Assembly (NCBI RefSeq): GCF_000619825.1
Contig: NZ_JHUW01000009.1
Coordinates: forward strand, 1 to 64,000
DNA from: Prevotella sp. MA2016
Lineage (GTDB): Bacteria > Bacteroidota > Bacteroidia > Bacteroidales > Bacteroidaceae
Direction of reading: 5' to 3'
Length of the DNA stretch: 64,000 bases
Position 1 is the first letter of the stretch. Every line of letters begins with the position of its first letter. The position numbers and the translations under genes were made by a program. This document shows, one piece after another, positions 15,078 to 47,586 of the stretch. The notes under the pieces were generated by a model. The model ran no database searches. It had not been told where the DNA came from and saw only the letters and a list, made by a program, of their open reading frames with translations.

Positions 15078-16991
15078 ATGAGGAAAAAACTTCTAAAGTT
15101 ATTAATTGTTATAGCTGCATTCATCTTTGGCAGCACAATAAAAGCGTATGCTGATGACTCAAAACCGGAGGATTTGAGCAAGTACTACCACTCACAGATG
15201 ATAGAAGTCATTAACGACGTTAATCAAAAGCATTTCCACCCTGCTTTTATCAAGATTCATCGTATGACCGATGAAATCCGTGAGCATCATCATGAACAGT
15301 ATCTCTATGTGCCGAACATGTGTCTGGGATTCTTCTATACCGGCAGAAACCAGCCCGAGATGGGAGAGACCTACTTCCGTAAGGCACTCCAGACTGTAGA
15401 TCGGAAAAAGAACGATGTGGCCGTATTCAATTGCTACCTATCCTTAGCTCAGGTGATGAGTTTCAACAAACCTGCCGAGGCCATGGCTTGTCTCGACAGT
15501 CTGCCACAGCACATGCTGCAGAACCCCATGTACGATAGTGGCGTGCTCGGCTTTCGCTGTATTCTGGCTAGTAAGATGGGCGACAATAAAGCCTTTAAAC
15601 ACTATTTTGCCCGATACGACAGCATACGCCAGAATCTCCCTCAGCAGTTTAATAGTGCCAACCTTTTCCAGGTGATGGTGTGCCACGCGCTCATGAACAA
15701 GGACTACAAGCTAGCCTTGGCCTGGAGCGACTCTACTGATGTAGAACTGATGGCCACAGAGTTACGCAGAGACATCTACGACCAAATGGGCGATTGGAAG
15801 AAAGCATACGAAGCAGCAGAACTGAAAGACAGTCTGCAGCAACTAGACGAGCGCGAGGTGCTGGAAGAATTGCTGATGGATGCCTCACGCGACATCAACC
15901 TGTTGCAGGCAGAACAAGACAAAGCTGAACTTAGAAAAAAGCAGTTGCTGACAGTAGGCTTTATGTCACTAATCATTATTGCGCTGCTGATAGCCGTTCT
16001 CATCTACCGCTATTTAAAAAACCATCGCCTTAAAGAGCAATTCCAGCAACTGCAGGAAGCTCGCCGAAAAACTGAGGCAGGTCAGGCCATCCGTCGTGCT
16101 TTCGTTACCACGATATTGGAGAAGCTCAAGTCGCCCATCAACGTACTGATGAACTATTCACGCATCTTCAACGATCCACAGTTTAATCTGAAGCCCGAAG
16201 AACGCATCAAGCGATACAGTGATATCGTGGCCGCAGCGCGTAATATAGAGTCTATGATGGATCCTGTACTCAACTCGTATGCCCAAGGCACCATTAGCAT
16301 CTCCGAAGAAGAAAGACGCACCTGTATGGATGCTATCCGTTCACCGCTGCTCTCGCTCATTGGTACAGCAGAGATGATTATCGAAGCCAATGGTCAGATT
16401 CCTCACGAAGAATATCAGGTACTCCGCTCGGAAGTATGCCGCAATGCATACAATGTGGCTACATCAACCCACAAGCTGGTACTATATAGCCTCTATGGCG
16501 ACGGTGCACCACTATTAAAAAATGTCGACCTGCATCTGAACGAGTCGCTACGTTCTATTCTCAACAGTTACGACCTGCAGCATACTGGTCCGGATCTTAA
16601 TGCTGAGAAAGAGCGTAAACTGACACTTGAGTATAAGACCGACATAAGTGATGATGTCATCATCCGCACCAATCCGCTGTTTGAGGTCATCATAAATTGT
16701 CTGCTGAGCAATGTCAACAAGTATGCCACTGGCGGTACAGTATTGCTGAACTGCCATAAGGAGCCCAACGGTACTTACACCGTATCGTTAAGCAATGAAG
16801 GACCTACGATTTCTGATGCCGATGCTGAGCGTATCTTTGAGCCTTACGTTCGTCTCAATGCCAATGAACATAGTCTGGGCATCGGTTTAGCCTTGGCACG
16901 AAGTCTGGCCACCTCAATGGGCTACACCCTTTACCTTGACACAACCTTCACGCAAGGTGCCCGCTTTGTCATCGCATTAAATGCGGAGTAG
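15078..16991 (+). CDS. TPR sensor with degenerate histidine-kinase module
   Basis: 637 residues. A signal peptide (about 1-25) is followed by a TPR-rich periplasmic region, a membrane helix (about 290-311) and a kinase-like module. The H-box has Glu348 where the phosphorylated His should be (FVTTILEKLKSPIN, 342-355). The ATPase part keeps the N-box Asn (LLSNVNKYA, near 545) and the G2 box (LGIGLALA). The G1 Asp is lost (SNEGPTI instead of DTGPGI). It is therefore probably not an autokinase and may bind a nucleotide or scaffold. The architecture parallels the SpoIIE-type gene two genes upstream. Its 3' end overlaps the convergent gene by 23 bp. Confidence 0.87.
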   Translation: MRKKLLKLLIVIAAFIFGSTIKAYADDSKPEDLSKYYHSQMIEVINDVNQKHFHPAFIKIHRMTDEIREHHHEQYLYVPNMCLGFFYTGRNQPEMGETYFRKALQTVDRKKNDVAVFNCYLSLAQVMSFNKPAEAMACLDSLPQHMLQNPMYDSGVLGFRCILASKMGDNKAFKHYFARYDSIRQNLPQQFNSANLFQVMVCHALMNKDYKLALAWSDSTDVELMATELRRDIYDQMGDWKKAYEAAELKDSLQQLDEREVLEELLMDASRDINLLQAEQDKAELRKKQLLTVGFMSLIIIALLIAVLIYRYLKNHRLKEQFQQLQEARRKTEAGQAIRRAFVTTILEKLKSPINVLMNYSRIFNDPQFNLKPEERIKRYSDIVAAARNIESMMDPVLNSYAQGTISISEEERRTCMDAIRSPLLSLIGTAEMIIEANGQIPHEEYQVLRSEVCRNAYNVATSTHKLVLYSLYGDGAPLLKNVDLHLNESLRSILNSYDLQHTGPDLNAEKERKLTLEYKTDISDDVIIRTNPLFEVIINCLLSNVNKYATGGTVLLNCHKEPNGTYTVSLSNEGPTISDADAERIFEPYVRLNANEHSLGIGLALARSLATSMGYTLYLDTTFTQGARFVIALNAE

Positions 16992-20729: not shown

Positions 20730-23003
20730 ATGAAAAAACTATTTTCAACCCTGCTCACAGGCATGTTCCTGATAACAGCAACACCAGCTGATGCCACCAA
20801 GTTATTGGGCATCAAAGTGATCGACAAGGATTATCTGATGCTGCACTTCCGCGATGGCGAAGTACATTATCGTGATAATGGTACAGGACCGAGTGCCTAT
20901 CTTGGACACTCATTTGCCGAGGGCGACGACACCCTTCTGGTTTTCGGCGAGAGACTGAAAGTCGCCGAAGCCCAGAAGGCAGGTCTGTGGCGGCTCAGCT
21001 CGCCCGACGACAAAGCCTTCGGCCAAGCCCAGCCATTGGCAGTATGGCGAAAGTCGAAGCCTATGAATTTCGACCACACACTGACGAGCGAACTCGACCA
21101 TTGGCTATTCATCCAAATGCCCCAATCAATGAAGCAGGGATGCACCTACAAGGTAGCCATCCCCACAGGTATCGGTGCCGACAAAGCCGAAGCCTCTATA
21201 CGTTTTGATGTATGGAATAACCAGTCAGAGGCAGTCCACGTCAATATCATCGGTTATTCACCACAGGAGGCTATACATGCTGCCGATCTGTATCAGTGGT
21301 TAGGTGATGGCGGTCAGCGCGACTATAAGGCACTGGAAGGTCGCCGTGTCTGGCTCTATAATGTCAACACCAAGAAGAAACAACAGGTGGGTGTCGTGAA
21401 GTTCTGGCAGCCAGCCTCAGCTTCCTCCAAAGAAGCCGGAGGTAAAAGTCTTATCAGCACCGATGTGTGGAACATCGACTTCAGTGCCAACAAGCCTGGC
21501 TGCTACCGATTGGTAGTTGAGGATGTAGGATGCAGCATGGACTTTGAAGTGGCTGATGACATCTATTATGAACCCTATCGTTACTCAGTACGCGGTTACT
21601 ACTATATGCGCCTGGGCGAACCTATCGACACCGGACACGTGTTCCCTGCACCCCGACAGCCTCAGTTCATTCCTGAGACCGATCCAAAGGGCTTCACTGT
21701 TTACAAAACCGATTTCCACCCTTGGAGCCCCGGTTGGCGCGAGTTGCACACCGATGTCTGGGATGAGCCCCACTTCAAGCAACTCAAGCAGTCTATCTTC
21801 TGGCAACACCGTCTGCCTGGAAACCCTGTTAACACCGAGGTGAAAGGCGGCCACTCCGATGCCTTCGACTGGGATCGCCATCTGGCTCATGTCAGCAATA
21901 TCTATGATATGCTCCTGCCTTATGTCCTCTCTGGTGGGAAACTGAATGAGGATGCCCTTGGTATCCGTGAGAGTGGTAATGGTATCCCCGACCTGATCGA
22001 CGAGGCACGCAACGAGGTTGACTTCTTCCTCTCTATCCGTGACGGCGAAGCCTACTCGCAGGGTGTCACCAACCCATGCGCCGATTGGAGCGTCATGTTC
22101 CAGGCAGGCTGTACTACCATGGCTGCTTGGGCCAATTCAGCCAACTGCGCTATCTTGGCCGAGGCTTTCCGTCAGAACAAGAACGACTCATTGTGCCAAT
22201 ACTATACCGCGGAAGCCATCAAGGCCTTCCGTTTTGCTGAGCGCCAAGAGAACCAGCAGCTCGACGACCGCCAGGACATCGGTTCGATGCAGATGCGCGG
22301 TCGCGACTTCCGCCAGATGGCTGCCGCTTACCTCTATAATGTAACGGGCGACGAACAGTGGGAGAAGATCTTTGCTGAGGAGAAATACAAGGTAAGCATT
22401 GCTACGGTTTGGACAGCAGCAGCCTATATGACCTGTCCTCACACCCGCCATTATTCCGAGCTGTATCAGGACATAAAGGCCGCCATCAATGCCGAGGCCG
22501 AGAAGTATAATATCTCGCACGTACAGCAGCGCCCATCACGCCGCGCCGCCAACGATGGTCGCTGGCAGACCTCCCAGAACCTGCAACTGGTAATGCTGGC
22601 TCACTATCTGGGTGACAAAGCTAAACGCAAGCAACTGGAGCATATCATGTTTATCGAAGCTGGCTGGGCGCTCGGTCGCAACCCCGGCAATATCGTAGAG
22701 ATGACGGGACTAGGTGAGCGCCATATCACCGATGTCTATTCTACAGGACGCAACGATGGTGCCCCTGGCACTCATCCAGGTCAGACACCATTCAATGGCA
22801 CCGAAACATGGTCGCCAGGACATAACGGCGGTGATGCCCGGATCATCTTAGCCTACTGTTATCCCGACTGGAACAATGGCGGGTGGCCACGCCAGGAGTC
22901 ATATTTCAACCAGCGTTACTTCTGGGTAAATGGTGAGTTCACGCCGCGTGAAACCATGCGCGGCAAGATGGCTCTCTTAGCTTACCTCTACGCCATCAGA
23001 TAA
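20730..23003 (+). CDS. GH9-like glycoside hydrolase, secreted
   Basis: 757 residues with a signal peptide (ending TPADA, about 22). An N-terminal Ig-like domain typical of GH9 (about 23-270) precedes a large (alpha/alpha)6-type domain. The catalytic base pair appears as SDAFDWDRH, where typical GH9 has DAGD. A C-terminal Glu in RETMRGKMALLAYLY may be the general acid, but the usual GH9 signature around it is not conserved. It is probably an endo-beta-glucanase acting on cellulose, xyloglucan or similar glucans, exported to the periplasm or surface. Its 3' end shares a hairpin terminator with the opposing gene. Confidence 0.83.
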   Translation: MKKLFSTLLTGMFLITATPADATKLLGIKVIDKDYLMLHFRDGEVHYRDNGTGPSAYLGHSFAEGDDTLLVFGERLKVAEAQKAGLWRLSSPDDKAFGQAQPLAVWRKSKPMNFDHTLTSELDHWLFIQMPQSMKQGCTYKVAIPTGIGADKAEASIRFDVWNNQSEAVHVNIIGYSPQEAIHAADLYQWLGDGGQRDYKALEGRRVWLYNVNTKKKQQVGVVKFWQPASASSKEAGGKSLISTDVWNIDFSANKPGCYRLVVEDVGCSMDFEVADDIYYEPYRYSVRGYYYMRLGEPIDTGHVFPAPRQPQFIPETDPKGFTVYKTDFHPWSPGWRELHTDVWDEPHFKQLKQSIFWQHRLPGNPVNTEVKGGHSDAFDWDRHLAHVSNIYDMLLPYVLSGGKLNEDALGIRESGNGIPDLIDEARNEVDFFLSIRDGEAYSQGVTNPCADWSVMFQAGCTTMAAWANSANCAILAEAFRQNKNDSLCQYYTAEAIKAFRFAERQENQQLDDRQDIGSMQMRGRDFRQMAAAYLYNVTGDEQWEKIFAEEKYKVSIATVWTAAAYMTCPHTRHYSELYQDIKAAINAEAEKYNISHVQQRPSRRAANDGRWQTSQNLQLVMLAHYLGDKAKRKQLEHIMFIEAGWALGRNPGNIVEMTGLGERHITDVYSTGRNDGAPGTHPGQTPFNGTETWSPGHNGGDARIILAYCYPDWNNGGWPRQESYFNQRYFWVNGEFTPRETMRGKMALLAYLYAIR

Positions 23004-23040
23004 AAATAAGAATGGGAGCTCGTGGCTCCCATTCTTATTT
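23004..23040. terminator. Bidirectional terminator
   Basis: A perfect 16-bp stem (arms 23004-23019 and 23025-23040) with a 5-nt loop. It has A/T-rich ends on both sides and lies between the convergent GH9-like gene and the propeller lipoprotein gene, whose stop codon falls in the right arm. It should work on both strands. Confidence 0.9.
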
Positions 23041-24525
23041 GCGTACGCCGAAATCCTTCCTGGATTTAGCGTTGATAATCTGACTGGCCTTATGCCCATC
23101 GAAATGTGTCGGAGCGATGACAAAATCTGGCACATTATAAGAAAGGAAACGCTCACGATAGAATCGGCGTGGGTTGCGTTGTGGCAACATAAATGCCTTG
23201 CTCACAGTGCCTTTATCATCGATATGACAGAAATAAGGACGTGTATAAAGACCATCATCGCGACGCGAGCTAAACACCAGCCAGCGTGAATTGGTGCTCC
23301 AGTTATGGAAAGACTCAGTATCCTCAGAGTTAGCCTCAATCATAGGCCGACTCTGATTGGTTTTAAAGTCAAGCAGATAGAGGTCGGCCTCATGATGCCA
23401 GATACTGAACTGGCCGTAATCAGAAATTGTGTAGCAAAGATATCGGCCATCGTAAGACGGACGAGGGAAAGACACCGACTTATGAAGCGCCTCGGCATCA
23501 ACAACCACTTCTATCTTATCACCAAACTTACCTGTTTCAGGGTCGAAGTCTATCCGGCAGAGATTATAACGAATTGAGTCTAACTGATGGTTATCCTCTG
23601 GCAGTGCCCGAGCCGCACAGAAATAGAGCGAACGCCCATCGGCAGAGAACACTGGATAGGTTTCATAAATAGAGTCTTGCTTGACGAGTGGCGAAAGTAT
23701 CAGTTCATTCTTCTCCACATCATACACCTGAAGGTCGGAAGCCTCATCAAACACCTCTATCAGGTTGCGATGAGCACTATGAAACGTCTGTTTAGTCACA
23801 TTAGTAGAATAGGCCACATAACGCCCGGAAGGGTGCCAATAGGGATACACACACAAGCCCAGTGTTTGGTCTGTCTTAGTGTTATAAGCAGTGATAGGTC
23901 CGTTGCCCTTGCGCAGTAAGGTAGCACCATGAGGACCACGGATATGCAGACTCATATCTGCGGGATTAGCCCGGTTGAAGCTATGGCAATTCACACACCC
24001 CTCAAACTGGGTATTCTCAATGAGTGCATGTTCCTCGAACGTAGAGAGATCACGCTCGTAAATACCCATCTTACTCCACACTTCATGACCTGGTGCTATC
24101 AGTCGGTAGCAGATACCATAGTCGATACTGTCCGAACTGACATAGATAGAAAAGGGGCTATAGGTATGCCAGCCTTCATCATACTTAGCAGACACGGTGA
24201 CGCTCAGTGAGTCGCCACGGTTCTGTTGTAGCATTTGATGCCAGTCGTCAAGATCAAAGTCAACAGTCTCATCACCTTGTCCACGCAAACTGTTACCATG
24301 ACGGTCGGTGATGACAGCATCAACAAACAAGGCCCCTTCATCAGCCATATTAAAATTAAGGGGAGCTATATTCACAGGTATGGTCACCCCGACATAATCC
24401 GGATAGATATGAGGCAACGACACCTCCTGCTTGGCATTTTCAGGTGTCACTGTGCAAGATGCCAACATCCAACACCCAACACCCAACATCCAACACCTAA
24501 CACCTAATAATATCTTTCTCATCAT
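23035..24525 (-). CDS. Beta-propeller (PD40-like) lipoprotein with CxxCH site, copy B
   Basis: 496 residues. Lipobox MLASC (Cys24) follows a signal peptide whose core is encoded by 7-bp DNA repeats. An N-terminal beta domain (about 35-165) holds YPDYVGVTIPVNIAPLNF. Next is CVNCH at 177-181 with Met191 and His194 beyond. TolB/PD40-like blades follow (YPYWHPSGRYVAYSTN, YPVFSADGRSLYFC). CxxCH suggests covalent haem c or a metal site. It is a paralogue of the 25926-27410 protein, last in the operon, and its start overlaps the membrane-protein gene by 4 bp. Function unknown. Confidence 0.85.
   Translation of the reverse strand: MMRKILLGVRCWMLGVGCWMLASCTVTPENAKQEVSLPHIYPDYVGVTIPVNIAPLNFNMADEGALFVDAVITDRHGNSLRGQGDETVDFDLDDWHQMLQQNRGDSLSVTVSAKYDEGWHTYSPFSIYVSSDSIDYGICYRLIAPGHEVWSKMGIYERDLSTFEEHALIENTQFEGCVNCHSFNRANPADMSLHIRGPHGATLLRKGNGPITAYNTKTDQTLGLCVYPYWHPSGRYVAYSTNVTKQTFHSAHRNLIEVFDEASDLQVYDVEKNELILSPLVKQDSIYETYPVFSADGRSLYFCAARALPEDNHQLDSIRYNLCRIDFDPETGKFGDKIEVVVDAEALHKSVSFPRPSYDGRYLCYTISDYGQFSIWHHEADLYLLDFKTNQSRPMIEANSEDTESFHNWSTNSRWLVFSSRRDDGLYTRPYFCHIDDKGTVSKAFMLPQRNPRRFYRERFLSYNVPDFVIAPTHFDGHKASQIINAKSRKDFGVRK
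24462..24510. repeat. 7-bp tandem repeat encoding a signal peptide
   Basis: Seven consecutive units in perfect register: CCAACAT, CCAACAC, CCAACAC, CCAACAT, CCAACAC, CTAACAC, CTAATAA. On the minus strand three units make seven codons, so the protein reads as repeats of LGVxCWM, forming the hydrophobic core of the lipoprotein signal peptide. Confidence 0.93.
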
Positions 24526-25913
24526 TTAATGGAATGAAGTAATAATTTGGTATAGTTATCACGATCGCCTGTCAGCAAGTAGTAAGCCTTCAGATATTCA
24601 AAAGCCAAGCGATTATTGGCATTGCTCGCTACTAGTTTCTGAAGCATCTCTGCTGTAACATGATCGCCGAAGAAGAAATTCTCTTGGTAGCCCATCTGGC
24701 GCAAACGTCCGTATTCGGGATGCTTGGCTATCGCCTTCTCATCACCTAATAATGGGAGTGTCTTCGTGGCCCAATCACGATAGAAGAGTGTTTTTTGCAA
24801 GGCTAAGAGGTACTTACGTGCAACCTCATAGTTGCCGAGAATCAGATTGGTCTGCGCCAAACGTTTGTAGCAGCGTCCGCTCTTCTGGAAATCAAGAATC
24901 GCTTCTTGTGCCTCGAACACCGTGCGCTGAGCAACAGTAATCATACCTAACTGATAGAAGGCCTCGGCTGTTGGCAAAGGACTGATGGCATCGGTGCCGA
25001 CATCAGGCAACAAACCAGCAAGGCCATTCTGATTATAGGCAAAAAGATGCTCGGCCAGAAGACCATGCATACCTAACGCCAGATTCTGCACCGTCACACC
25101 AATCTGATTGTTAGGTTTCTCTTTATTGATGGTCTCAATAATACGATTCCACTGCTGATAGCGGGCCATAAAATCGTATTGCATCACCTTCTCGGCCTTG
25201 AAATTGCTATTCTTCCACACCACGTTTCCCATCACAACAGCCACCACTGCGAAAGAAATCAGTGTAACGATGGGCTTTTTCAAAGTATTGGTCCATTTAT
25301 GGAAGATGCGCACCATCAGCACAAGCATGAAAACTGACAGAGCAGCACTCCAGAGTATCACGGGGAATTCGGCAGGATAACGATAATAATGCACGCCATG
25401 CCACAACTCACTAAATGGAAGCGGAAGAGACACGGGCCCAACCAGCCAATAGAGCACTGGGATGGCTACCACTATCGCAGCGTATTGCTTCCATCCACGT
25501 GGCAGTCGGAATAATCCCCATGCTACAAGCAACGTTATCAATACTGCCCAGACACCACTCATCAGTGCATTCTCGTCAAGCAAGAACAACCAAAGCAGGA
25601 ATGAAGGCACATAACTCAATCCATAGAGCCAGCCCCAACGAGCCACGCGACACATCAGAAGCTGTACTGCTGAGAGAAGCACACCAATAATAATCGCCCC
25701 TACCCAGGCATACAGAAAAAACTGTGTACAGAACCGCCCCAGCAAGTCGGCCACGCCACCTGGCTGTTTGACGATATCCCACACATAGTTGCTATCGAAG
25801 AGAAAGAGCTGGAACTGCTCCTGATAATGGAGATGATGCGGATAGGCCAGTCCAAAGAAAAGCACTACCGCTACACCAAAAAGGAGCGTATATAATACTT
25901 GTAAGTTCTTCAT
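24522..25913 (-). CDS. Polytopic membrane protein, DUF6057-like, copy B
   Basis: 463 residues. The N-terminal half (about 5-245) has around seven hydrophobic helices with short loops. The C-terminal half is soluble and helical, TPR-like (RLAQTNLILGNYEVARKYL, FEYLKAYYLLTGDRDNY). It looks like the DUF6057-type membrane proteins of Bacteroidota, and its layout recalls the larger 27410-29149 protein. It lies between the two CxxCH propeller lipoproteins, 12 bp and -4 bp from its neighbours. A role with the lipoprotein in the cell envelope is inferred; no enzymatic motif is visible. Confidence 0.78.
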   Translation of the reverse strand: MKNLQVLYTLLFGVAVVLFFGLAYPHHLHYQEQFQLFLFDSNYVWDIVKQPGGVADLLGRFCTQFFLYAWVGAIIIGVLLSAVQLLMCRVARWGWLYGLSYVPSFLLWLFLLDENALMSGVWAVLITLLVAWGLFRLPRGWKQYAAIVVAIPVLYWLVGPVSLPLPFSELWHGVHYYRYPAEFPVILWSAALSVFMLVLMVRIFHKWTNTLKKPIVTLISFAVVAVVMGNVVWKNSNFKAEKVMQYDFMARYQQWNRIIETINKEKPNNQIGVTVQNLALGMHGLLAEHLFAYNQNGLAGLLPDVGTDAISPLPTAEAFYQLGMITVAQRTVFEAQEAILDFQKSGRCYKRLAQTNLILGNYEVARKYLLALQKTLFYRDWATKTLPLLGDEKAIAKHPEYGRLRQMGYQENFFFGDHVTAEMLQKLVASNANNRLAFEYLKAYYLLTGDRDNYTKLLLHSIK

Positions 25914-25925
25914 CTGAACACATTA

Positions 25926-27410
25926 TTAGAAAAACACTCTACTAAATTCATCCACTCCTATCTTAACAGGTTCTATCATGAACTCAGGACGATTATAACT
26001 TTTCAGTCGGGTGATGTTTTGTTCTGGGTCTTCCTGCGGCAGCATAAAGGCCTTCCCCACTTTTCCCTTATTAAAATAGGCAATATAGACGCGACTGTAG
26101 TTGCCATCATCACGACGACTGGCACACATGATCCAGTGACCATTGCTCGACCAAGTGGGATAGCTCTCGGCAAAGCCTTTACTGTTCAGTCGATTCAGAT
26201 TGAGGCGTGGGTTACCCTCTTCATGAAGTGGCAAACAAACGATATCGGCATCATGATGCCAGATATGGAAACAGCCATACTGCCCTTCAGCAAAGAGCAG
26301 ATAACGCCCATCAGGACTGATACGAGGCAAGGTAGCACTCTTGTCATGTGAAGCAGCGTCATACAACAGTTCTTCATCACCAAAAGCATGCGAAGCCACA
26401 TCAAACGCACGGCGATATACATTGTATTGCACTTTTTGGAAGGTTGTCCTGATATCCTTATCGTGCATCTCTTCGGGGAGGGGAACCGATTTGCAGTAAT
26501 AAAGGTATTTTCCATCAGGCGACCAGGTTGGGAACACCTCTAACAACGTTGAATCATTACTGATAATGCTTACAGAATCTGTTGCCACATCATAAAGCAC
26601 CAGATCGCTTGCCGTATCAAACACCTCCACTTTGTTGGCATTTGCCGTATGGAATACCTGATGCGTCTCATTGGTAGAGAATGCGATAAGCTTAGCTGTA
26701 GGATGCCATGCCGGATATACACCAGCGGATATCGTATAATCGCGCTTCAGGTCCACCTTCGATATCTTGCCATCATTTACGATAACAGTTCCTCCACGAG
26801 TAGCACGGGCATGAAACAGCATGTTATCAGTCTTATAGTTCTGATAACTATGACAGTTGATACACTGCCCCTTTGGATTGTCGCACGCCACTTTATTATT
26901 AAAAATCTGCTTCTCCTCGAACGAAGAAAGGTTGCGCTGAGCTATCTCCATATAGTCATAAACAATATACGATGGCTCTATCAGACGGTATGACAGATAT
27001 TCATCTATAGGCTGTTCAGCAATATGTATCTCAAAGGGCGTGAAAGCCAACCATTCATCAGCCTTTTTACCCCATACTTCCACTTTGATGCTTCTGCCCT
27101 TTGCCGCCAGAAGCATAGCATGCCATTCCTCTTCAGGGATAAGCACCTTCACACCATCGCCATACGTCTGTTGCATGCCATCAGGCGTACTGATTCGTGC
27201 CACACATGCCTCATACTCATCAGCAGACAACATAAAGTTAAGCGGCGCAATATTACAAGGCACGGTAACGTCATTATAATCAGGAAATATCGTAGGCCAG
27301 CATTTTGCATCACGACTTGACGCAGGCACATCAGGGTGATTCACACACGATGCCAGAAGCAATATCCCCCACGCCAGCAATATTATTCTTAATCTTTTCA
27401 TATACGTCAT
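25926..27410 (-). CDS. Beta-propeller (PD40-like) lipoprotein with CxxCH site, copy A
   Basis: 494 residues. Lipobox LLASC (Cys22) follows an ordinary signal peptide. The domain order matches the 23035-24525 paralogue: FPDYNDVTVPCNIAPLNF near 42-59, CINCH at 183-187, Met197 ten residues after the His, then propeller motifs (YPAWHPTAKLIAFSTN, FPTWSPDGKYLYYC, SYPTWSSNGHWIM). The spacing CxxCH-x9-M-x2-H is identical in both copies, as expected for a retained haem or metal ligand set. The start codon shares a base with the upstream stop (TAATG), so translation is coupled to the membrane-protein gene. Confidence 0.85.
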   Translation of the reverse strand: MTYMKRLRIILLAWGILLLASCVNHPDVPASSRDAKCWPTIFPDYNDVTVPCNIAPLNFMLSADEYEACVARISTPDGMQQTYGDGVKVLIPEEEWHAMLLAAKGRSIKVEVWGKKADEWLAFTPFEIHIAEQPIDEYLSYRLIEPSYIVYDYMEIAQRNLSSFEEKQIFNNKVACDNPKGQCINCHSYQNYKTDNMLFHARATRGGTVIVNDGKISKVDLKRDYTISAGVYPAWHPTAKLIAFSTNETHQVFHTANANKVEVFDTASDLVLYDVATDSVSIISNDSTLLEVFPTWSPDGKYLYYCKSVPLPEEMHDKDIRTTFQKVQYNVYRRAFDVASHAFGDEELLYDAASHDKSATLPRISPDGRYLLFAEGQYGCFHIWHHDADIVCLPLHEEGNPRLNLNRLNSKGFAESYPTWSSNGHWIMCASRRDDGNYSRVYIAYFNKGKVGKAFMLPQEDPEQNITRLKSYNRPEFMIEPVKIGVDEFSRVFF

Positions 27411-29149
27411 TACAATTTTCGTCCAAAGATATTATACCACCAATAGGTATCGGCCCATTCTGCTTGCATCTTCACACCTACATCTTCTAGTTTCACGCCA
27501 GTTTTTACATGACTTCCAAGTGCTTCCCAGAACAGCTTATAGCGGTCATAGACCTCTTGCTCTACAGGGAGCATCATACGCTTCTCTTCGGGGGCTTTAT
27601 CAAGATACATGATATATGCCTCCTGAGCATGCAACGGGAATTTGCCGCCAGGGTGCAGTTTCACAAACTTGCGCAACGATGCCCAGAAACAACGTGAGTC
27701 GCGACGTATCATGGAATAGAACAAAGCCTGTTCAGAAGCCACCTGACTGACTGTATCCGCAGAATGACTAAAGCTATTGATAATATAGCGCTCACTATCA
27801 TTCTCAACACCATTAATCTCGTCATCGAACGAGTTGTTTAACTCTTTTACAGTATTTGTAATTGGAGCAGGATGCCAATGCTCATAAAACAGGTTATGCT
27901 GCAGCATCTTACGATAGCGTCCGGCCAAATTCTTTTCACCTGTTGCATCAGCACAACGCCATAAGAGCTTCATATAGAAAGGCGACAGTCCTGTGGCTAC
28001 AGTATTTTCAAAACTCAACCGCGTAGCATAATTCATCTTACCATAGTTATAATAAACCAGCGGTGCCGCAATGTTCATCATACTGATATGGAGTGTATCA
28101 GGCTGATATACATCTACCCCACTATTGCCAAGTTTAAACGAACGGTCAAGCAGTCCGCCTTCGTTCATCAGCGCAATATTCCGGAGCATAACCATCGTTG
28201 TTGTAGGTTTATGATTTTCTGTGGCCACCTGGAGCACTCCTTTCCAGTCGTCGCTCTCGGCATAGCGCACCATACGCATCTCGTCAATATAACGAGGCTC
28301 ATTAAACATGAATACATGGCAGAAAGCTATAGCCGATACAGCACAAAGCACTGGAACAATCCCATGGTTCAGGTAGTAACGGAATAAAGGAATCAGTATA
28401 GAAATAGCGCCCAGCACCCAGAATGGGATAGACAACTGGTCACTATGTTCCACCGGTGTCACAAATTGTGGGAAGCCAGCCAATGCCACATCGGCCAGTT
28501 TTTGATCGGAATATAGTAACGCACGCCAGATAGCAGCGGTAAAGAGCACCAGGATGATAGCTAATAATTCACGCCAGGTAGGTTTACCGGTAACCACCAG
28601 ACAAATTACAAAGAGCAAGGCGAACCACCCCAAAACAGGGTACAAAGCAAAGCCCACCAGATACCAAACAAGGTGCCACTTTCTAGGTGTACTGCTTGCA
28701 GCCCATAGCAGCAGAAGCATCAAGAGATAGCCTACTGACTGCGAGAACCAGTAGCCACGAATAGAAAAGATGTAGATCCAGTAACCCAGGTCAACAATAG
28801 AAGTAAGCAGACAGGCAACAGGCAAGAGCATCAATGCCGAGGCGCTTCCCTGTAGCCGGAACGCTTTGGTCCCTACATAGAAGATGACCCCCCAGATAAG
28901 AATCAGGATACATGTACCTAAGGTTGGATAATAACAGAGCTGTGTGAGCCACGCGCCCACATATTGCATCAAACCAAAAGGTTTTGATAGTAACGAACAG
29001 TAAAAAGGCGCTCCATAAAGAAATTCAGAGCGATCATGTGCCGTATATAATACCTCTTGATTAAGATAAAGCAGATATACAGCAAATGAAATAAAAGCCA
29101 ACATACTTACATAGAGGATGGCTCTGGAGATATTAGTTTTTTTAGTCAT
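27410..29149 (-). CDS. Polytopic membrane protein, DUF6057-like, copy A
   Basis: 579 residues. About ten hydrophobic segments lie in residues 10-300 (WLTQLCYYPTLGTCILILIWGVIFY; SVGYLLMLLLLWAA). A helical soluble region of about 275 residues follows, with TPR-like character. Its topology recalls GT-C-type or oligosaccharide-handling membrane proteins, but no catalytic motif is recognisable. It is the first gene of a duplicated module (membrane protein plus CxxCH propeller lipoprotein, twice), lying 69 bp downstream of the susC-susD-lipoprotein operon beyond a hairpin. Confidence 0.78.
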   Translation of the reverse strand: MTKKTNISRAILYVSMLAFISFAVYLLYLNQEVLYTAHDRSEFLYGAPFYCSLLSKPFGLMQYVGAWLTQLCYYPTLGTCILILIWGVIFYVGTKAFRLQGSASALMLLPVACLLTSIVDLGYWIYIFSIRGYWFSQSVGYLLMLLLLWAASSTPRKWHLVWYLVGFALYPVLGWFALLFVICLVVTGKPTWRELLAIILVLFTAAIWRALLYSDQKLADVALAGFPQFVTPVEHSDQLSIPFWVLGAISILIPLFRYYLNHGIVPVLCAVSAIAFCHVFMFNEPRYIDEMRMVRYAESDDWKGVLQVATENHKPTTTMVMLRNIALMNEGGLLDRSFKLGNSGVDVYQPDTLHISMMNIAAPLVYYNYGKMNYATRLSFENTVATGLSPFYMKLLWRCADATGEKNLAGRYRKMLQHNLFYEHWHPAPITNTVKELNNSFDDEINGVENDSERYIINSFSHSADTVSQVASEQALFYSMIRRDSRCFWASLRKFVKLHPGGKFPLHAQEAYIMYLDKAPEEKRMMLPVEQEVYDRYKLFWEALGSHVKTGVKLEDVGVKMQAEWADTYWWYNIFGRKL

Positions 29150-29217: not shown

Positions 29218-29934
29218 TTATTCCTCATAGTAAACACTTGTGAATGTTGCAGAACCATTTGTAATCAGCAGGTTCAGGTCCTTACCAGCACCACCATTAC
29301 CCTTAGCACACTCCTTAGCAATCTGCTCAGTAATGGTAACCTCCCACTTCATACCTGAAGTCAATGGAATATTATCTGCATAAGTAGAGCTCCACCAACC
29401 GTTCATGACACGAGCAGTACAGCCATCGCTGGCCTCCTTAACGTCAAGAATCAGGGTCTTCAAACCGAAGTAGAAGTCGTCGGTAAGAGTTGGGAAATTC
29501 TGACCTTCAGAATCGCTGAAACGCAGAGGAGCAGCATCCCAACCGCCAACAGTGAATTCACCTTCCCAGAGGGTGTACTTGGTCAGAGGATCGGTGATCT
29601 CGTCGCAAGTTACAGGATATTCAGCTGTAAGCTGTGTACCATCAGGACAAAGAGCTGTAAGAACTACAGTATAAGCACCGAGCTTCATCTTTTTCTTAGC
29701 GAAATTGCTAACGAAATCCTTACCTCCAATAGACCACTTGGCATTAACAGGAGCCGAAGTTGAGCAGGTAATAACGTTTCCGTTCTGACCACTGGCTGCC
29801 TTATCTACAGAAACAGTAGTCATTGCCTTGAGCTCATCAACAGTGATGTGACCGGCATTGCTGATATCCTCATGAACGGGATCGCATGCTGCAAAGGCAC
29901 ATACTGCGAATAACATCAAAAATATCTTTTTCAT
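29218..29934 (-). CDS. PUL surface lipoprotein (SusE-position)
   Basis: 238 residues, lipobox AFAAC (Cys16). An N-terminal Ig/PKD-like beta domain (about 35-110) precedes a C-terminal beta-sandwich (about 118-238: LWEGEFTVGGWDAAPLRF, then NGWWSSTYADNIPL). Aromatic-rich loops suggest glycan binding. The C-terminal part faintly resembles the modules at the end of the 39108-40955 protein. It follows susD by 21 bp, the usual place for a surface glycan-binding protein. Confidence 0.8.
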   Translation of the reverse strand: MKKIFLMLFAVCAFAACDPVHEDISNAGHITVDELKAMTTVSVDKAASGQNGNVITCSTSAPVNAKWSIGGKDFVSNFAKKKMKLGAYTVVLTALCPDGTQLTAEYPVTCDEITDPLTKYTLWEGEFTVGGWDAAPLRFSDSEGQNFPTLTDDFYFGLKTLILDVKEASDGCTARVMNGWWSSTYADNIPLTSGMKWEVTITEQIAKECAKGNGGAGKDLNLLITNGSATFTSVYYEE

Positions 29935-29955: not shown

Positions 29956-31845
29956 TTAATAAAGAACTTTATACTGAGTCTTAGCATCAGCTGCATCCCA
30001 ACCTGGGTTCTGCTCAATCTTACCATTCATCAGAGTAATCTGAGTCTGTGGCTTTGCCAAGAATCCATTAGTAGCGGCATAACGCTCAGCCCAAGAGCAA
30101 GTCATGTGCTCCATTGTACGCTTGTTAGACTTGTCGCCGAGGCAAACAATCTTCTTACCAGCCTGAGCCTGAAGAGCTTTAGCTGCGATTGAGCTCTCGC
30201 CTGCATCCTTACCAGACCAACGACGCAAATCGTTGAAACGCAGACCCTCGAATGCGAACTCCCAACGGCGCTCGTTCTGAACGGCCTTCAGAGAGTATGG
30301 AGTCTCAGGAACACCAGCACGCTTCTGAACCAGGTTCATATAAGAAGCATCACCAGTAAGCTCGGTAGCCATCAGAAGCACGTCAGCATAACGCATCAGA
30401 TAGAAATCCTCGAAGTGGTCGCCCTGCATCTTGTTGTCAAGAGAGCTGCTGGTATAACCAGGAGCCTGAGACCACCATGTGTCGTTGTTTGCACCGCATG
30501 CATCGAGGTTAACCTCAGCATACTTCTTCACAGAATAACCAGACTCTTCACAGTCATCCTTCTCATAGGTGTACTTAGCGAGTTCATTATCGAGATCAAT
30601 CAGAGAAGCCTTCTTACGGAGGTCAGTATATTCACCAGATCTCTCAGCATCTGTCCAGTCGTCCCAGATGTTGCAAGAAGGAGTACCCTGACCCCAACCC
30701 TGGTTGAATGGATAAGTATTGTTGCGGTCACCATTCTGGTTAGAAGCACCATTACGCAGACCCCAGAATACAGAGATGTAGTTAGAATACATACGCTGAG
30801 CGTTGTAAGTACCACCGATGTTCCAGCTTGAAGCATTCATAAACTGGATCTGGAAGAGCTCCTCAGTGTTACCATTACCCATACCAGGCATATCGAAGCA
30901 GTTTTCGCGCTTCATATCCTTGATGAAGGCATAACCATGATCTGCATCATCCTGAGCCTCAGCCCACAGCAAGCTGTTAGAATACTGCCAGAGTGAACGG
31001 TAGTCCTCACAGAGCTTGTAAGCACCACTGCCAATGATCTCCTTCAGACCGCTGACAACATCAGCCTGAGAAAGAGAACCTGAGCAACCTTCCTGCTCTA
31101 CCAGTGTGATAGCAGGAGCAGAACCTGTAGCGAGCTCACCTACCTTCTTATAGAAGCCAGCCCAGAACATGTAAGCACGAGCAATGAATGCCTCGGCAAC
31201 ATACTTGTTGGCATGACCATCACCAAAGCCCTTATCAGTACCCATCAAGCTCTTTGCAGAAACAAAGTCAGAGAGAATCTGTGGATAGATTACATCCTCA
31301 GCACTTACCTGCTCCTCCATCTCAGGAGTAATAGTGGTAGAAGTGATTAGGGGCACATCACCAAACAGCTGTGTGAGCCACAAGGTGTAGAGACCACGCA
31401 TGAAGTAAGCCTCACCAAGCAACTGGTTACGCTGAGCCTGCTGCTTATCTGTCCAGGGCACATTATCAATAGTCTCAATCTGGTTGTTAGCACGTGAGAT
31501 ACCACCATACAGGAGGATGAATGGAGTCTCAAACTGGCTTGTACTCATCTCTACAAGGTGATGAAGTGACTTTACCTTGTTGTCCTGCAAACCGCCACTT
31601 CCGTAGCAGTCATCTGACATAACTTCCCACCAGAAGAAGATATTCTGGTTATCTGAGTCGCCGCCACCCATGGTATTCATGATACTATAGGTTGCTGCAT
31701 TCAAGGCCTCAACATCGGCAGGCTTACCAGGGAAAGTAGCCTGTGTCATCTCAGTAACACGTGGATCTGTATCCAGCATGTCGTTACAAGATGTAAACGC
31801 TGCTGCTGACAAAACAGCTAACGATGATAAAATATATTTTTTCAT
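29956..31845 (-). CDS. SusD/RagB-family glycan-binding lipoprotein 1
   Basis: 629 residues, lipobox AFTSC (Cys19) followed by NDMLDTDP, the standard SusD start. TPR-like helices and the family C-terminal region (NERRWEFAFEGLRFNDLRRW) are present. It caps the SusC barrel 1 and presents oligosaccharides for uptake. It is 15 bp downstream of susC 1. The ligand is unknown; neighbouring GH5/GH9-like enzymes suggest a beta-glucan. Confidence 0.95.
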   Translation of the reverse strand: MKKYILSSLAVLSAAAFTSCNDMLDTDPRVTEMTQATFPGKPADVEALNAATYSIMNTMGGGDSDNQNIFFWWEVMSDDCYGSGGLQDNKVKSLHHLVEMSTSQFETPFILLYGGISRANNQIETIDNVPWTDKQQAQRNQLLGEAYFMRGLYTLWLTQLFGDVPLITSTTITPEMEEQVSAEDVIYPQILSDFVSAKSLMGTDKGFGDGHANKYVAEAFIARAYMFWAGFYKKVGELATGSAPAITLVEQEGCSGSLSQADVVSGLKEIIGSGAYKLCEDYRSLWQYSNSLLWAEAQDDADHGYAFIKDMKRENCFDMPGMGNGNTEELFQIQFMNASSWNIGGTYNAQRMYSNYISVFWGLRNGASNQNGDRNNTYPFNQGWGQGTPSCNIWDDWTDAERSGEYTDLRKKASLIDLDNELAKYTYEKDDCEESGYSVKKYAEVNLDACGANNDTWWSQAPGYTSSSLDNKMQGDHFEDFYLMRYADVLLMATELTGDASYMNLVQKRAGVPETPYSLKAVQNERRWEFAFEGLRFNDLRRWSGKDAGESSIAAKALQAQAGKKIVCLGDKSNKRTMEHMTCSWAERYAATNGFLAKPQTQITLMNGKIEQNPGWDAADAKTQYKVLY

Positions 31846-31860
31846 ATCTTAAATATCGAA

Positions 31861-34800
31861 TTAGAATTTAATACTTGCACCAACCAAGAATGTGCGTGCG
31901 GTTGGGTAAAGACCCAGGTCGATACCAGATGCCCAACCATTACCACCACCGGCTGAACCAACCTCAGGATCGAGACCAGTGTAGCTTGTGAAGGTGTGGA
32001 GGTTCTGAGCCTGTACATAGAAACGGAGCTGCTGGAATGGGCAAGACTTCCAGATGTTCTTAAAGTCGTAACCGAGAGTTACAGTCTTAATCTTGAAGTA
32101 GTCTGCATCCTCCATATAGCGGTTAGATACCCAGATAGTATTCTGGTGACCTGTAGCAGAGATACGTGGCTGACTGTTAGAAGTGCCCTCACCATGCCAA
32201 CGATTCAGGATAGTAGTATCGTAGTTCTGGTCGGGGTCGTCACCGTATGAACGGTAAGAACGCATGATCTGCTGACCGAATGCACCTGCACCGTTAACAC
32301 CGAAGTCGAAGCCCTTATAGTTCAAACCGAGGTTGATACCAAGGGTGAAGTCTGGGTTAGGATTACCAATCTCATGACGGTCGCAAAGATCGCCTTCAGC
32401 ATAAGTAATCACGCCATCGTTGTTCCAGTCATCCCAGATGCAGTCACCAGGCTGAGCATTGTCAAGAACGGCCTTACCAGCAGCGCGAGCTGCATCGATC
32501 TGCTCCTGATTCTGCCAGATACCGCTGTAAGACATACCATAGAAGTAGCCGATAGGCTTGCCTTCCTCAGCACGGTAGATATACTCAGTACCCTGTGAAA
32601 GCAGGTTACCAGCACCATTCAGATAGTGGTTCTCGTTAGCAATACGAGTTACCTTATTCTTATTGGTAGCCAGGTTCACGCCAATGTTATAGCTGAAGTC
32701 CTTACCAATATTGTCGTTCCAAGTAAGAGCGAGCTCAAAACCAGTGTTCTCTACGTCACCACCATTGATAGCAGCAGGATTGGTACCCTGGATAGCAATC
32801 ATTGGACCTGTGATCAACCAGTCCTTAGTGGTCTTCTTATACCAGTCGAAGTTTACACCCAGACGGCTGTTGAGGAAACGAGCGTCGAAACCTAAGTCGA
32901 GCTGCTCAGAAGTCTCCCAAGTAAGGTCAGGGTTAGGAACGATGTTAGCATAAGCACCGGTGTTAGGAGTACCGCTTGTAGAAGTCTCCATGTCCGAACC
33001 GAACTTATAACCACTGTCGTTAGCATCACCAGACATAGCGATAGTAGCCAGATACTGATACTTAGAAATAGCGCAGTTACCGTTCTGACCCCAAGAAGCA
33101 CGGAGTTTGAAGAAGTCCATCCAGCTCTTAGTGCTCTGCATAAATTTCTCGTTGGTGAGTACCCAACCAGCAGATACTGATGGGAAGAAGCCCCAGCGCT
33201 TACCATCGTTAAAGATACTTGAACCATCATAACGCATGGTTACGGTAGCCATATAAGTCTCGTTCCAGTCCCAAGTTACACGACCGAACCAAGAAGCAAG
33301 ATACTCTTCGTCATTAGGGTTACCAGTGAGCGAAGCATCGGTAGCACTTGTCAGTTTCAGGTTAGACAGCCAAGCTGAATCCCAGTTCTTCAGGGTAGCA
33401 AGCTGCTCGCCGAACTTAACCTTGTTAGAACCGCTGAGGTTTGTACCCCAAGCACTGCTCTGGTAACTCTGACCAACCATAGCGCTAATCTTATGACCAG
33501 CAATAATAGGAAGATCGTAAGTAAGTGTATTTTCTACAGAGAATGAAGAGTTCATCCAAGAGCTCTGGCTAACGTTATATGAGTCAACGATAGCAGAACC
33601 TTCTGCTGGAGCACGAGGAATACCAAAGTTACGGTAAGCACCAGAACCCCAGTTATAGTTGAACTGTGAGCGGAATCTCAGGCCCTTGATAGGCTGGATG
33701 GTGATGAAACCAGTAGCACTGGCATTGAAGTTACGGCTCTCAGCCATTGAGTTGAAGCCACCTTTAGACAGATTCTCCCATGGGTTGCTGAACATAGAAG
33801 GATTCCAGCCCTGTCCATAAGCAGGTGTACCATCAGGATTCTGATAAGCGTAGATATCGCCATTGTCAGCAAACTGTGGAACCAGTGGAGAAGTCTGAAG
33901 CAGACTGTGGATATAGCTCCAGTACATACCGTCCTCAGCCAGGTCGTGATTCTTGTTATAGCCGATAGAGATGTTCTCACCGATGGTGATAGCATCGAAA
34001 TCCTTGACCTTCAAGAGCACATGATCACTGTTGATACGGATAGTGTGACGATTGTAGTAAGAAGCTCTGTCAGCACCCATGATACCTTCGTTACCAGTAT
34101 AGGTGTAAGACATAGCAAACTTAGAACGGTCAGTACCACCAGTCAGTGTTACTGAATGGTTCTGCTGAACTGCATTGTTATTCTCGAATGCACCCCACCA
34201 GTCGGTACCTTCCCAACCATTGTTCACCTTGTTGAGAATATCCTGTGGAACATAGTCAGCCCAATTAATCTTTGCACCAGAAGTATTGAAATTATACTCG
34301 TCAAAGATGGTCATGTACTGCTGTGCATTGAGCAGCTGTGGACGCTTATAAGCCTTTGACCAACCCATAGCACCATTATAGCTGAGTTCGATCTTACCGG
34401 CCTTACCCTGCTTAGTAGTAACAAGGATTACACCGTTGGCAGCACGGGCACCATAGATGGCAGCCGATGCAGCATCCTTCAATACGTCGATGCTCTCAAT
34501 ATCGTTAGGGTTAATACCGTCAAGGTTTCCACCAGCTACACCGTCGATAACATACAGAGGTGAAGCAGAACCTGTGGTACCGATACCACGGATGTAAACC
34601 TTGTAACCCTTACCTGGCTGAGCAGAAGACTGGGTGATCTGTACACCAGGAGTGCTTGACTGCATAGCCTCAAGTGCGTTGGTTGTGTTCAGCTTGGCGA
34701 TTTCCTCACCCTTTACCTGAACTGTAGCACCGGTAACCAGCTTCTTCTTCATGGTACCGTAACCAACAACTACAACTTCGTCCAACAAGGCGTCATCGTC

Positions 34801-35133
34801 AACCAGTGTGATGTTGAAGTTTGACTGATTACCAACCTTGATTTCCTGAGTAACATAGCCGATGTACGATACAACGATCGTAGCACCTGGCGAAACGTTG
34901 AGAGTAAAGTTTCCGTCGAAATCGGTAATGGCACCGTTTCCGGATTTACCTTTTTCAACTACGCTAGCTCCGATAACGGGGCCCTGAGCGTCGACTACAG
35001 TACCTGTAATCTTCTTCGTTGCCTGCTGGATCTCCTGAGGAGCTCCTGCGGCGTAGGCATTCGAAGAGTAACCAAGGCCGAACATAGCCATGGCACTCAT
35101 CAGCAGCGCTGTCTTTCTAAAATTTCGATTCAT
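31861..35133 (-). CDS. SusC/RagA TonB-dependent transporter 1
   Basis: 1090 residues. The signal region is followed by a carboxypeptidase-like regulatory domain (about 40-115: ITGTVVDAQGPVIGASV, DFDGNFTLNV), the TonB-box-like DEVVVVGYGTMKKK, a plug with YVIDGVAGGNLDGINPNDIESIDVLKDAASAAIYG, and a 22-strand barrel ending in an aromatic-rich strand (FLVGASIKF). It imports oligosaccharides across the outer membrane with its SusD partner. Its first 45 or so codons are nearly identical at DNA level to those of SusC 2. It starts a minus-strand operon. Confidence 0.96.
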   Translation of the reverse strand: MNRNFRKTALLMSAMAMFGLGYSSNAYAAGAPQEIQQATKKITGTVVDAQGPVIGASVVEKGKSGNGAITDFDGNFTLNVSPGATIVVSYIGYVTQEIKVGNQSNFNITLVDDDALLDEVVVVGYGTMKKKLVTGATVQVKGEEIAKLNTTNALEAMQSSTPGVQITQSSAQPGKGYKVYIRGIGTTGSASPLYVIDGVAGGNLDGINPNDIESIDVLKDAASAAIYGARAANGVILVTTKQGKAGKIELSYNGAMGWSKAYKRPQLLNAQQYMTIFDEYNFNTSGAKINWADYVPQDILNKVNNGWEGTDWWGAFENNNAVQQNHSVTLTGGTDRSKFAMSYTYTGNEGIMGADRASYYNRHTIRINSDHVLLKVKDFDAITIGENISIGYNKNHDLAEDGMYWSYIHSLLQTSPLVPQFADNGDIYAYQNPDGTPAYGQGWNPSMFSNPWENLSKGGFNSMAESRNFNASATGFITIQPIKGLRFRSQFNYNWGSGAYRNFGIPRAPAEGSAIVDSYNVSQSSWMNSSFSVENTLTYDLPIIAGHKISAMVGQSYQSSAWGTNLSGSNKVKFGEQLATLKNWDSAWLSNLKLTSATDASLTGNPNDEEYLASWFGRVTWDWNETYMATVTMRYDGSSIFNDGKRWGFFPSVSAGWVLTNEKFMQSTKSWMDFFKLRASWGQNGNCAISKYQYLATIAMSGDANDSGYKFGSDMETSTSGTPNTGAYANIVPNPDLTWETSEQLDLGFDARFLNSRLGVNFDWYKKTTKDWLITGPMIAIQGTNPAAINGGDVENTGFELALTWNDNIGKDFSYNIGVNLATNKNKVTRIANENHYLNGAGNLLSQGTEYIYRAEEGKPIGYFYGMSYSGIWQNQEQIDAARAAGKAVLDNAQPGDCIWDDWNNDGVITYAEGDLCDRHEIGNPNPDFTLGINLGLNYKGFDFGVNGAGAFGQQIMRSYRSYGDDPDQNYDTTILNRWHGEGTSNSQPRISATGHQNTIWVSNRYMEDADYFKIKTVTLGYDFKNIWKSCPFQQLRFYVQAQNLHTFTSYTGLDPEVGSAGGGNGWASGIDLGLYPTARTFLVGASIKF

Positions 35134-35633
35134 ACTTAAGTTTTAAACTATAGATAATTGGTTTGAAATAAGCTAGTGGTACAAAGGGATACCATAAAGG
35201 ATTCCTAAGATCTACCCCTCATATATCAGATATACAAGGAGCACAAAATCACACGCTAAGACGAATTTTTACTGGTCATAAGTTTGATTTTAAGTTTTTA
35301 CTAATTGGAATAGTTGAATTTGTACACTCCTATATTCGGTGGCAAAGGTAATGAATTATTTAGAAACTATATAAAGATTGGTTGACAAAAACTGATACTT
35401 TTTTGCTCAAACCACATTTTTAACATTTAAAATACGTAAAAACTATCAAAAAGAGGGTAAAAGTGTGACCTAAACACCACCAAAAACGGGGTTTTTACTA
35501 AATTAATGTGAATAACTTGTAAGATTTCTAATAATATAATAAGGTACGCGTACGAGAAAATTTTCTGAAAAATCCTTGTTTATGTCGATAAAAGTACATA
35601 TCTTTGCGGGCGAATTATCAATCTAAAACTAAT
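35134..35633. other. Divergent control region between susC 1 and a GH5 gene
   Basis: A 500-bp A/T-rich noncoding region. On the minus strand TAccTTTG (35343-35350) is a likely -7 element for susC 1 without a matching TTTG, implying a leader of about 200 nt. Missing -33 elements are common where an activator is needed. A short hairpin (AAAAAC/GTTTTT at 35482-35496) lies centrally. The plus-strand promoter of the GH5 gene is at the right end. I see no gene or RNA structure beyond these. Confidence 0.6.
35575..35606 (+). promoter_or_regulatory. Promoter of GH5 gene 1
   Basis: CTTG (35575-35578, one mismatch to TTTG) and TAtcTTTG (35599-35606) are 20 bp apart. The GH5 ATG is at 35634. This excludes an upstream in-frame start at 35604, which would fall inside the promoter. 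Confidence 0.65.
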
Positions 35634-37403: not shown

Positions 37404-37426
37404 GAAAGACTGCCAATAACAATAAA

Positions 37427-37464
37427 AAGAAGAGCGCTTACTGTAATACGTAAGCGCTCTTCTT
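37427..37464. terminator. Bidirectional terminator between the two GH5 genes
   Basis: A perfect 15-bp stem (37427-37441 and 37450-37464) with an 8-nt loop. It has an A-run on the left and T-richness on the right, between convergent GH5 genes. Confidence 0.9.
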
Positions 37465-37469
37465 GATGA

Positions 37470-39032: not shown

Positions 39033-39063
39033 TGTCACATTATTATATTAGTAAAAAAAAGAA

Positions 39064-39098
39064 AGCAGAGTGCCCCTACTATTCATGGGCACTCTGCT
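39064..39098 (-). terminator. Terminator or attenuating hairpin after the SGBP gene
   Basis: A perfect 12-bp stem (39064-39075 and 39087-39098) with an 11-nt loop, followed on the minus strand by a long T-run (TTTCTTTTTTTTA). This is a good intrinsic terminator. GH5 gene 2 starts 32 bp beyond and shows no promoter of its own, so its expression would need read-through. Confidence 0.85.
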
Positions 39099-39107
39099 CT
39101 TTGAGTA

Positions 39108-40955: not shown

Positions 40956-40967
40956 GTTTTTATGAGT

Positions 40968-42251: not shown

Positions 42252-42274
42252 GATTTGATATGTCTATTAAATGA

Positions 42275-44008: not shown

Positions 44009-44017
44009 AATGTTTGT

Positions 44018-44023
44018 CCTCCT
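44018..44023 (-). promoter_or_regulatory. Shine-Dalgarno site of susD 2
   Basis: AGGAGG on the minus strand, 9 nt before the ATG at 44008. With the site at 11984 it is one of two strong SD matches I noticed in the window. Confidence 0.65.
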
Positions 44024-44027
44024 ATTA

Positions 44028-47333: not shown

Positions 47334-47586
47334 AATTAGTGTTAATATTAATAACTTGGTTTTCTTTTGAGTCAATACAAATCTTCAGTTTGTAGTTTTG
47401 ATCTAACAATTTCTGGGTGCAAAGTTAAGCAAAACGAAACAAATCATGATACTTTTGTTTGATAAATACTAATACTTTTCTGCCTAATACTTTCTTTTTG
47501 ATGATAACCCCCTCAAATAATCCGAAAAAAGCGTCATTTTTCCAAAACCTTTTGTACCTTTGCACCACTGACAAAAAAGTATAAAT
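47334..47586. promoter_or_regulatory. Divergent control region, susC 2 and GH31
   Basis: Two -7 elements face outward: TAacTTTG on the minus strand (47420-47427) for susC 2, and TAccTTTG on the plus strand (47555-47562) 25 bp before the GH31 ATG. Neither has a TTTG at the correct upstream spacing, which suggests activator dependence and possible co-induction. No gene lies between. Confidence 0.6.

Follow-up and report, generated by a model that had tools for sequence, protein, structure and literature searches.

A TolB-type propeller lipoprotein with a conserved CxxCH site is paired with a DUF6057 membrane protein in Bacteroidales and may form a haem c module of the envelope

TolB-type beta propellers are already known, and so is the substrate of System II cytochrome c synthesis, a CXXCH motif that is recognized on the unfolded apoprotein (PMC10663686). 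The membrane protein family DUF6057 (Pfam PF19529) has no described function. Here we analysed a 64,000-nucleotide stretch of Prevotella sp. MA2016 (contig NZ_JHUW01000009.1, positions 1 to 64,000; referred to as the window in the rest of the text), in which two DUF6057 proteins, each paired with a TolB-like propeller lipoprotein bearing a CxxCH motif, are encoded behind a SusCD transporter. Literature searches retrieved no paper on DUF6057 or on a "TolB-like translocation protein", and searches on CxxCH, propeller or cytochrome c together with Sus and Prevotella returned nothing on the pair, so that in the literature found the pairing of a CxNCH propeller lipoprotein with DUF6057 is undescribed. 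Judging from sequence, we lean slightly towards the view that the propeller carries haem c. We regard as evenly balanced the fuller proposal that the module is a periplasmic complex of an inner-membrane protein and a lipoprotein with its haem c site in the TolB-type propeller. That it represents an undescribed haem c class, in which such a propeller lipoprotein is obligately paired with a GT-C-like/tetratricopeptide repeat (TPR) membrane protein, is a tentative suggestion for which our confidence falls somewhat short of even.

The operon lies on the minus strand in the order susC, susD, a small lipoprotein gene and then, twice, a DUF6057 gene followed by a propeller gene, an arrangement with coupled starts that an earlier note on this DNA had described and that the open reading frames bear out. 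The first pair consists of a full-length DUF6057 protein of 579 amino acids (aa; 27410..29149, PF19529, E = 1.3e-62) and a 494-aa propeller lipoprotein (25926..27410, PD40, E = 1.5e-14), whose genes are coupled by a TAATG junction at 27410. In the second pair, a C-terminally shortened DUF6057 protein of 463 aa (24522..25913, PF19529, E = 6.8e-130) is coupled by an ATGA junction at 24522-24525 to a 496-aa propeller lipoprotein (23035..24525, PD40, E = 3.8e-9). Both membrane proteins belong to the family, with Pfam scores of 213 and 435 bits, respectively, against a curated cut-off of 29.8 bits, and PD40 repeats exceed their cut-off in both lipoproteins (53.9 and 36.7 bits, respectively). The candidate haem c attachment site is CINCH in the first propeller (residues 183-187; 26850..26864) and CVNCH in the second (residues 177-181; 23983..23997), and in both copies a Met stands 10 residues and a His 13 residues past the motif His. 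The latter, His200 in the first propeller (26811..26813) and the residue encoded at 23944-23946 in the second, is the candidate second axial ligand.

Three sets served to trace the pair: an order-level sample of 149 genomes, a set of 80 loci retrieved when 84,980 species were scanned, and a family-level (Bacteroidaceae) sample of 201 genomes. Site conservation was counted over 139 propeller relatives, 138 of which cover the CxxCH region; because the DNA patterns used to find most of these relatives excluded the CxxCH stretch, the count is not circular. Of these 138 propellers, 137 keep the two Cys and the His of the motif and 136 have the second His, while the Asn within CxNCH and an Arg two residues past the second His were invariant (138/138 each). 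The only propeller without CxxCH, L096_7, also lacks a DUF6057 neighbour. The earlier note had proposed a conserved set of CxxCH, Met and His; the motif and the His are indeed conserved, whereas the Met at +10 occurs in only 117 of 137 propellers and is replaced by F, S, T or L in the others. Given this variability, which extends to distant members, we rejected the Met as a fixed haem ligand.

Cytochrome c maturation genes, for which the earlier note had advised looking, are present in the same genome, as a fused ccsBA on contig C5 and as split ccsB and ccsA genes on contig C4, at most about 1 kb away from nrfA. The fused gene adjoins a cysteine synthase-like gene, and the genome thus holds two cytochrome c synthase loci. 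In the family census, CcsA was found in 175, the propeller in 150 and NrfA in 29 of the 201 genomes. Among the good genomes, defined as at least 90% complete, CcsA was present in 92 of 94 with the propeller compared to 27 of 38 without it (P = 1.7e-5, Fisher's test; the split was derived from summary tallies and listed individual genomes). The association held in family genomes lacking NrfA (124/135 with the propeller compared to 22/37 without, P = 1.1e-5) and in the order sample (17/17 compared to 102/132, P = 0.02), none of these tests being corrected for shared ancestry. One of the two exceptions lacking CcsA, G159, carries half of a ccsBA on a contig. No ccsBA gene was found beside a DUF6057-propeller locus. 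From the motif and this association across genomes, the propeller would most likely be loaded with haem by CcsBA; since System II reads the unfolded apoprotein, the propeller fold does not exclude attachment.

The model of the propeller (predicted local distance difference test, pLDDT, 93.1; all structure models were of single chains) was closest to TolB, with both the propeller and the N-terminal domain aligned (Z = 26.6, root-mean-square deviation 3.4, 278 aligned residues; range 275-278). The next structural match was the propeller of hydrazine synthase alpha (Z = 23.4 over 283 residues), which we rejected as a homologue with the same haem site, since the haem motif to which His587 belongs falls beyond the part that aligns (residues 53-417). 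A sequence search for solved relatives of the single propeller returned none, and a profile search returned only TolB-type propeller repeats. Lower-confidence blocks of the model include residues 141-150 and 171-190, the latter around CxNCH, and could reflect a missing cofactor; Tyr141, Arg142 and Pro146 are invariant in alignment A4. The lipobox Cys is conserved among the relatives, in keeping with the envelope location that the earlier note had assigned. In Bacteroidota, acidic residues after the lipid-bearing Cys direct lipoproteins to the cell surface. Such residues number 0-1 in 91 of 95 propellers, compared to 2-3 in all 18 SusD proteins and 2 in 12 of the 14 third lipoproteins. Lacking this signal, the propeller is expected from its sequence to face the periplasm, and it probably does so. 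In this it differs from SusD and the third lipoprotein, which carry the signal, and glycan sensing, a role that the earlier note had entertained, is unlikely for the propeller at the cell surface.

Several observations weigh against haem, in addition to the uncorrected shared ancestry noted above. In the cofactor-free model, CxxCH stands beside a beta strand, whereas ordinary cytochromes c have it where a helix begins, and haem c motifs do not usually contain an invariant Asn. The window propellers matched no cytochrome c Pfam domain, DUF6057 has no conserved membrane His pairs, and no obvious electron donor or acceptor adjoins the pair. In G187, a nearly complete genome that bears the propeller, neither CcsA nor CcsBA was detected, and 22 genomes encode CcsA but lack NrfA and, at the threshold applied, any match to the propeller. 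The main rival to haem is a metal site, in which CxxCH and the second His would bind zinc or non-haem iron or form a structural site, the pair would be a scaffold or an enzyme, and the link to CcsBA would be a by-product of lineage. We consider this unlikely, though a serious contender. It would fit the hairpin that the motif forms in the model with the strand bearing the second His, the invariance of the Asn and the propeller-bearing genome without CcsBA, and it has a precedent in hydrazine synthase alpha, where the His of a CxxCH motif binds zinc at a site that nevertheless carries haem as well (PMC12607021). A metal site would, however, not account for why 137 of 138 propellers keep the CxxCH spacing exactly or why the propeller is significantly associated with the cytochrome c synthase, in genomes without NrfA as well, and an exposed periplasmic CxxCH is an expected substrate in a cell with active CcsBA. 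Haem c remains our preferred reading of the site.

The full-length DUF6057 protein was modelled (pLDDT 91.6) as an N-terminal multi-pass domain followed by a TPR-like C-terminal solenoid. Foldseek returned no match to this model below E = 0.001. In a second structure comparison, the matches covering residues 1-288 were GT-C enzymes, with Z = 7.5 over 249 residues for Pmt4 and Z = 7.3 over 242 for ArnT. By a positive-inside count, Lys and Arg are abundant in the loops at 95-102, 151-158, 187-194 and 256-266, while acidic residues prevail in the first large loop and in the C-terminal part, a charge pattern that places the C-terminal domain in the periplasm. The solenoid and the propeller would thus both be periplasmic, where the partners could meet.

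These structural matches raise the alternative that DUF6057 is an active GT-C glycosyltransferase or ligase acting on a periplasmic envelope glycan or glycoprotein, with the propeller presenting the acceptor or receiving the product. The topology of DUF6057 fits such an enzyme, the long matches that span the N-terminal domain are all to GT-C enzymes, and TPR solenoids are found on GT-C enzymes such as the TMTC proteins. However, a Z score of about 7.4 falls in the chance range for helical proteins according to the note of the comparison tool, and the catalytic Asp/Glu that GT-C enzymes hold in the first periplasmic loop is not conserved, an acid being present at positions 37-40 in only 50 of 66 proteins with QQ in most of the others. 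Nor did DUF6057 show any sequence match to GT-C families, and a profile search for its solved relatives gave nothing meaningful. Together, the chance-range score and the non-conserved acid make "GT-C-like" a lead and not a membership. This alternative also leaves CxxCH unexplained, and we find it quite doubtful.

The two families occur in nearly the same genomes of the order sample, where they adjoin. When this sample and the 80 loci were taken together, DUF6057 and the propeller stood side by side in 111 of 122 module blocks, nearly always with DUF6057 first, and the gap between them was 30 bases or less in 110 of 136 cases, many of which were 4-base overlaps. The conserved pairing that the earlier note had anticipated is thus found; the reverse gene order was seen at three distant loci. 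Neither of the outcomes that the earlier note had named as refuting its proposal, a CxxCH/Met/His set missing from most homologues or two families that do not pair, was observed. The propeller has up to seven copies per genome and is often absent. DUF6057 itself occurred in just 2 of 295 other genomes of a phylum-wide sample, indicating that it is essentially a Bacteroidales family. Propeller pairs were also seen on contigs labelled as Roseburia and Clostridium metagenome-assembled genomes (L125 and L171), which are probably mis-binned Bacteroidales sequence rather than cases of transfer.

The two pairs of the window had been described as a duplicated module, a description that did not hold. 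The lipoproteins are 39% identical to each other and the DUF6057 proteins less than 20%, and each lipoprotein has relatives in other Bacteroidales families that are closer to it than the other copy is. In a maximum-likelihood tree, the window propellers fell into two separate, well-supported groups, each with members from other Bacteroidales families, so that the operon joins two ancient propeller subfamilies; a local tandem duplication was rejected on this ground. About twenty ruminal Prevotella-like genomes have the operon conserved as one unit. The second DUF6057 protein lacks about 100 C-terminal residues, and because its counterparts in the orthologous operons are mostly shortened as well (455-530 aa), its length of 463 aa does not reflect a local frameshift.

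Some loci depart from this arrangement. In two orthologous operons, L122 (10761-12236) and L113 (4223-5710), the second propeller is only 46% identical to that of the window, compared to 66-82% in the others, while the membrane protein before it shows the identity of a normal orthologue (61-66% to the window's); the L122 propeller groups with propellers of another Bacteroidales family, as if the propeller alone had been replaced. A third DUF6057 gene of the same genome as the window (contig C10, 10158-11321; L005) codes for 387 aa, scores 70 bits and lies beside a glgB-like gene; it has no propeller partner, and the middle of the family profile is largely weakly matched. Orphan DUF6057 genes without a propeller were also seen at L100, L101 and L102, the following gene coding for a hybrid two-component regulator-like protein at L100 and for an 854-aa protein with no Pfam match at L101.

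Because the genes are coupled and paired, we infer that the co-translated DUF6057 and propeller proteins form one envelope complex. DUF6057 would sit in the inner membrane through its GT-C-like multi-pass domain and offer its helical-repeat solenoid to the periplasm. After export, the CxNCH of the propeller would be charged with haem by CcsBA, the putative axial ligands being the His of the motif and the one at +13, and the holo-propeller together with DUF6057 may act as a redox-active or haem-sensing unit of the envelope. In this scheme, the pairing, the conservation, the fold type of the propeller, the link to CcsBA and the missing surface-export signal are observations, whereas the physical complex, the haem and the orientation across the envelope are deductions. 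At the present locus, two such units from two ancient subfamilies would have been recruited behind a SusCD transporter, while elsewhere the pair would serve other loci.

The tie to SusCD proposed in the earlier note proved to be local. In the window, the operon begins with a SusC/RagA TonB-linked outer membrane protein of 1090 aa (31861..35133, minus strand; TIGR04056, 897 bits against a cut-off of 368), followed by a SusD family lipoprotein of 629 aa (29956..31845, minus strand; PF07980 and PF14322), whose acidic residues after the lipid Cys (CNDMLD) are as in a surface-export signal. The third lipoprotein, of 238 aa (29218..29934, minus strand), matches no Pfam family and is kept in orthologous operons; it carries an acidic signal of the same kind and is expected at the cell surface. 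SusC or SusD genes flank 20 of 22 orthologous loci and 12 of 29 loci in distant genomes, but only 7 of 60 paralogous loci. As the 3.38-Mb genome has 39 strong SusC matches, about 10 of 60 loci would be expected near SusC by chance, and a general dependence on SusCD was rejected. Other loci neighbour glycoside hydrolase (GH) genes of families GH2, GH3, GH10, GH28, GH43 and GH97, hybrid two-component regulators, or LptF/G, methionyl-tRNA synthetase, methylmalonyl-CoA mutase and other housekeeping genes. This variety, together with a SusCD linkage at background level, points to a module of general use in the envelope, which some glycan loci have recruited.

It is thus very unlikely that the propellers and their partners are ordinary accessories of glycan uptake, that is, lipoproteins with which a polysaccharide utilization locus binds or processes glycans at the surface. 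Such a role would agree with the GH neighbours and with the position behind susCD that the orthologous operon keeps in about 20 ruminal Prevotella-like genomes, but it is at odds with the lack of a surface-export signal in the propellers, the background frequency of SusC/D near paralogous pairs and the many such pairs that adjoin housekeeping genes. Finally, a TolB-like role in outer-membrane maintenance, analogous to Tol-Pal, is highly improbable since, even with TolB as the closest solved fold over propeller and N-terminal domain, the window propellers score 28.6 and 29.3 bits against the TolB equivalog cut-off of 343 (TIGR02800), TolB itself lacks CxxCH and is no lipoprotein, the scanned neighbours included no homologue of Pal, TolA, TolQ or TolR, and the propeller occurs in up to seven copies or not at all.

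Several further features lie close to the operon. The region at 35604-49848, beside it, holds two GH5 genes, a second SusC/SusD pair, a GH31 gene and, at 40968-42251, a gene for a surface protein with the xyloglucan-binding domain SGBP_B_XBD, and looks like a xyloglucan utilization locus. On the other side, a GH9 gene occupies 20730-23003. Reading of the translations revealed two sensor-like proteins (11998-14073 and 15078-16991) flanking an ornithine carbamoyltransferase-like gene, one with helical repeats and a PP2C-like phosphatase domain, the other with helical repeats and a histidine-kinase-like domain.

NrfA, the usual client of the haem-attachment machine, is present in only 29 of 201 genomes, yet gut and rumen Bacteroidaceae retain this machine. 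A widespread, exported protein with a near-invariant CxxCH provides a handle on what it is for. If the haem assignment is true, the propeller, found in 150 of the 201 genomes, would be among the commonest clients of CcsBA in these bacteria, and it would represent a new setting for haem c, the TolB-type propeller, in an envelope complex common among fibre-degrading bacteria. If the site binds zinc instead, the pair, which travels together throughout gut and rumen Bacteroidales, would still be an undescribed envelope module of high conservation, and DUF6057 would have gained a partner.

Among known systems, TolB of Tol-Pal resembles the window propellers in the fold of its propeller and N-terminal domain and through weak TIGR02800 and PD40 matches; the window proteins differ in being lipoproteins with CxNCH, a second His and a DUF6057 partner, and their sequences fall far under the TolB cut-off. 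Hydrazine synthase alpha of anammox bacteria shares the aligned propeller and is a c-type haem protein, but it has no sequence relation to the window propellers and is an enzyme of nitrogen metabolism. System II c-type cytochromes such as NrfHA likewise have CxxCH in an exported protein of cells that contain CcsBA, whereas the propeller has a single motif set in a beta propeller, no cytochrome c domain and a putative haem. Pmt4 and ArnT may share the overall arrangement of DUF6057 residues 1-288 and, by charge, the periplasmic first loop and C-terminal domain, while DUF6057 departs from them in its middling Z scores, its lack of a conserved catalytic acid and its lack of a sequence match. To DUF6057 as previously known, the present analysis adds its CxxCH propeller partner, its topology and its solenoid.

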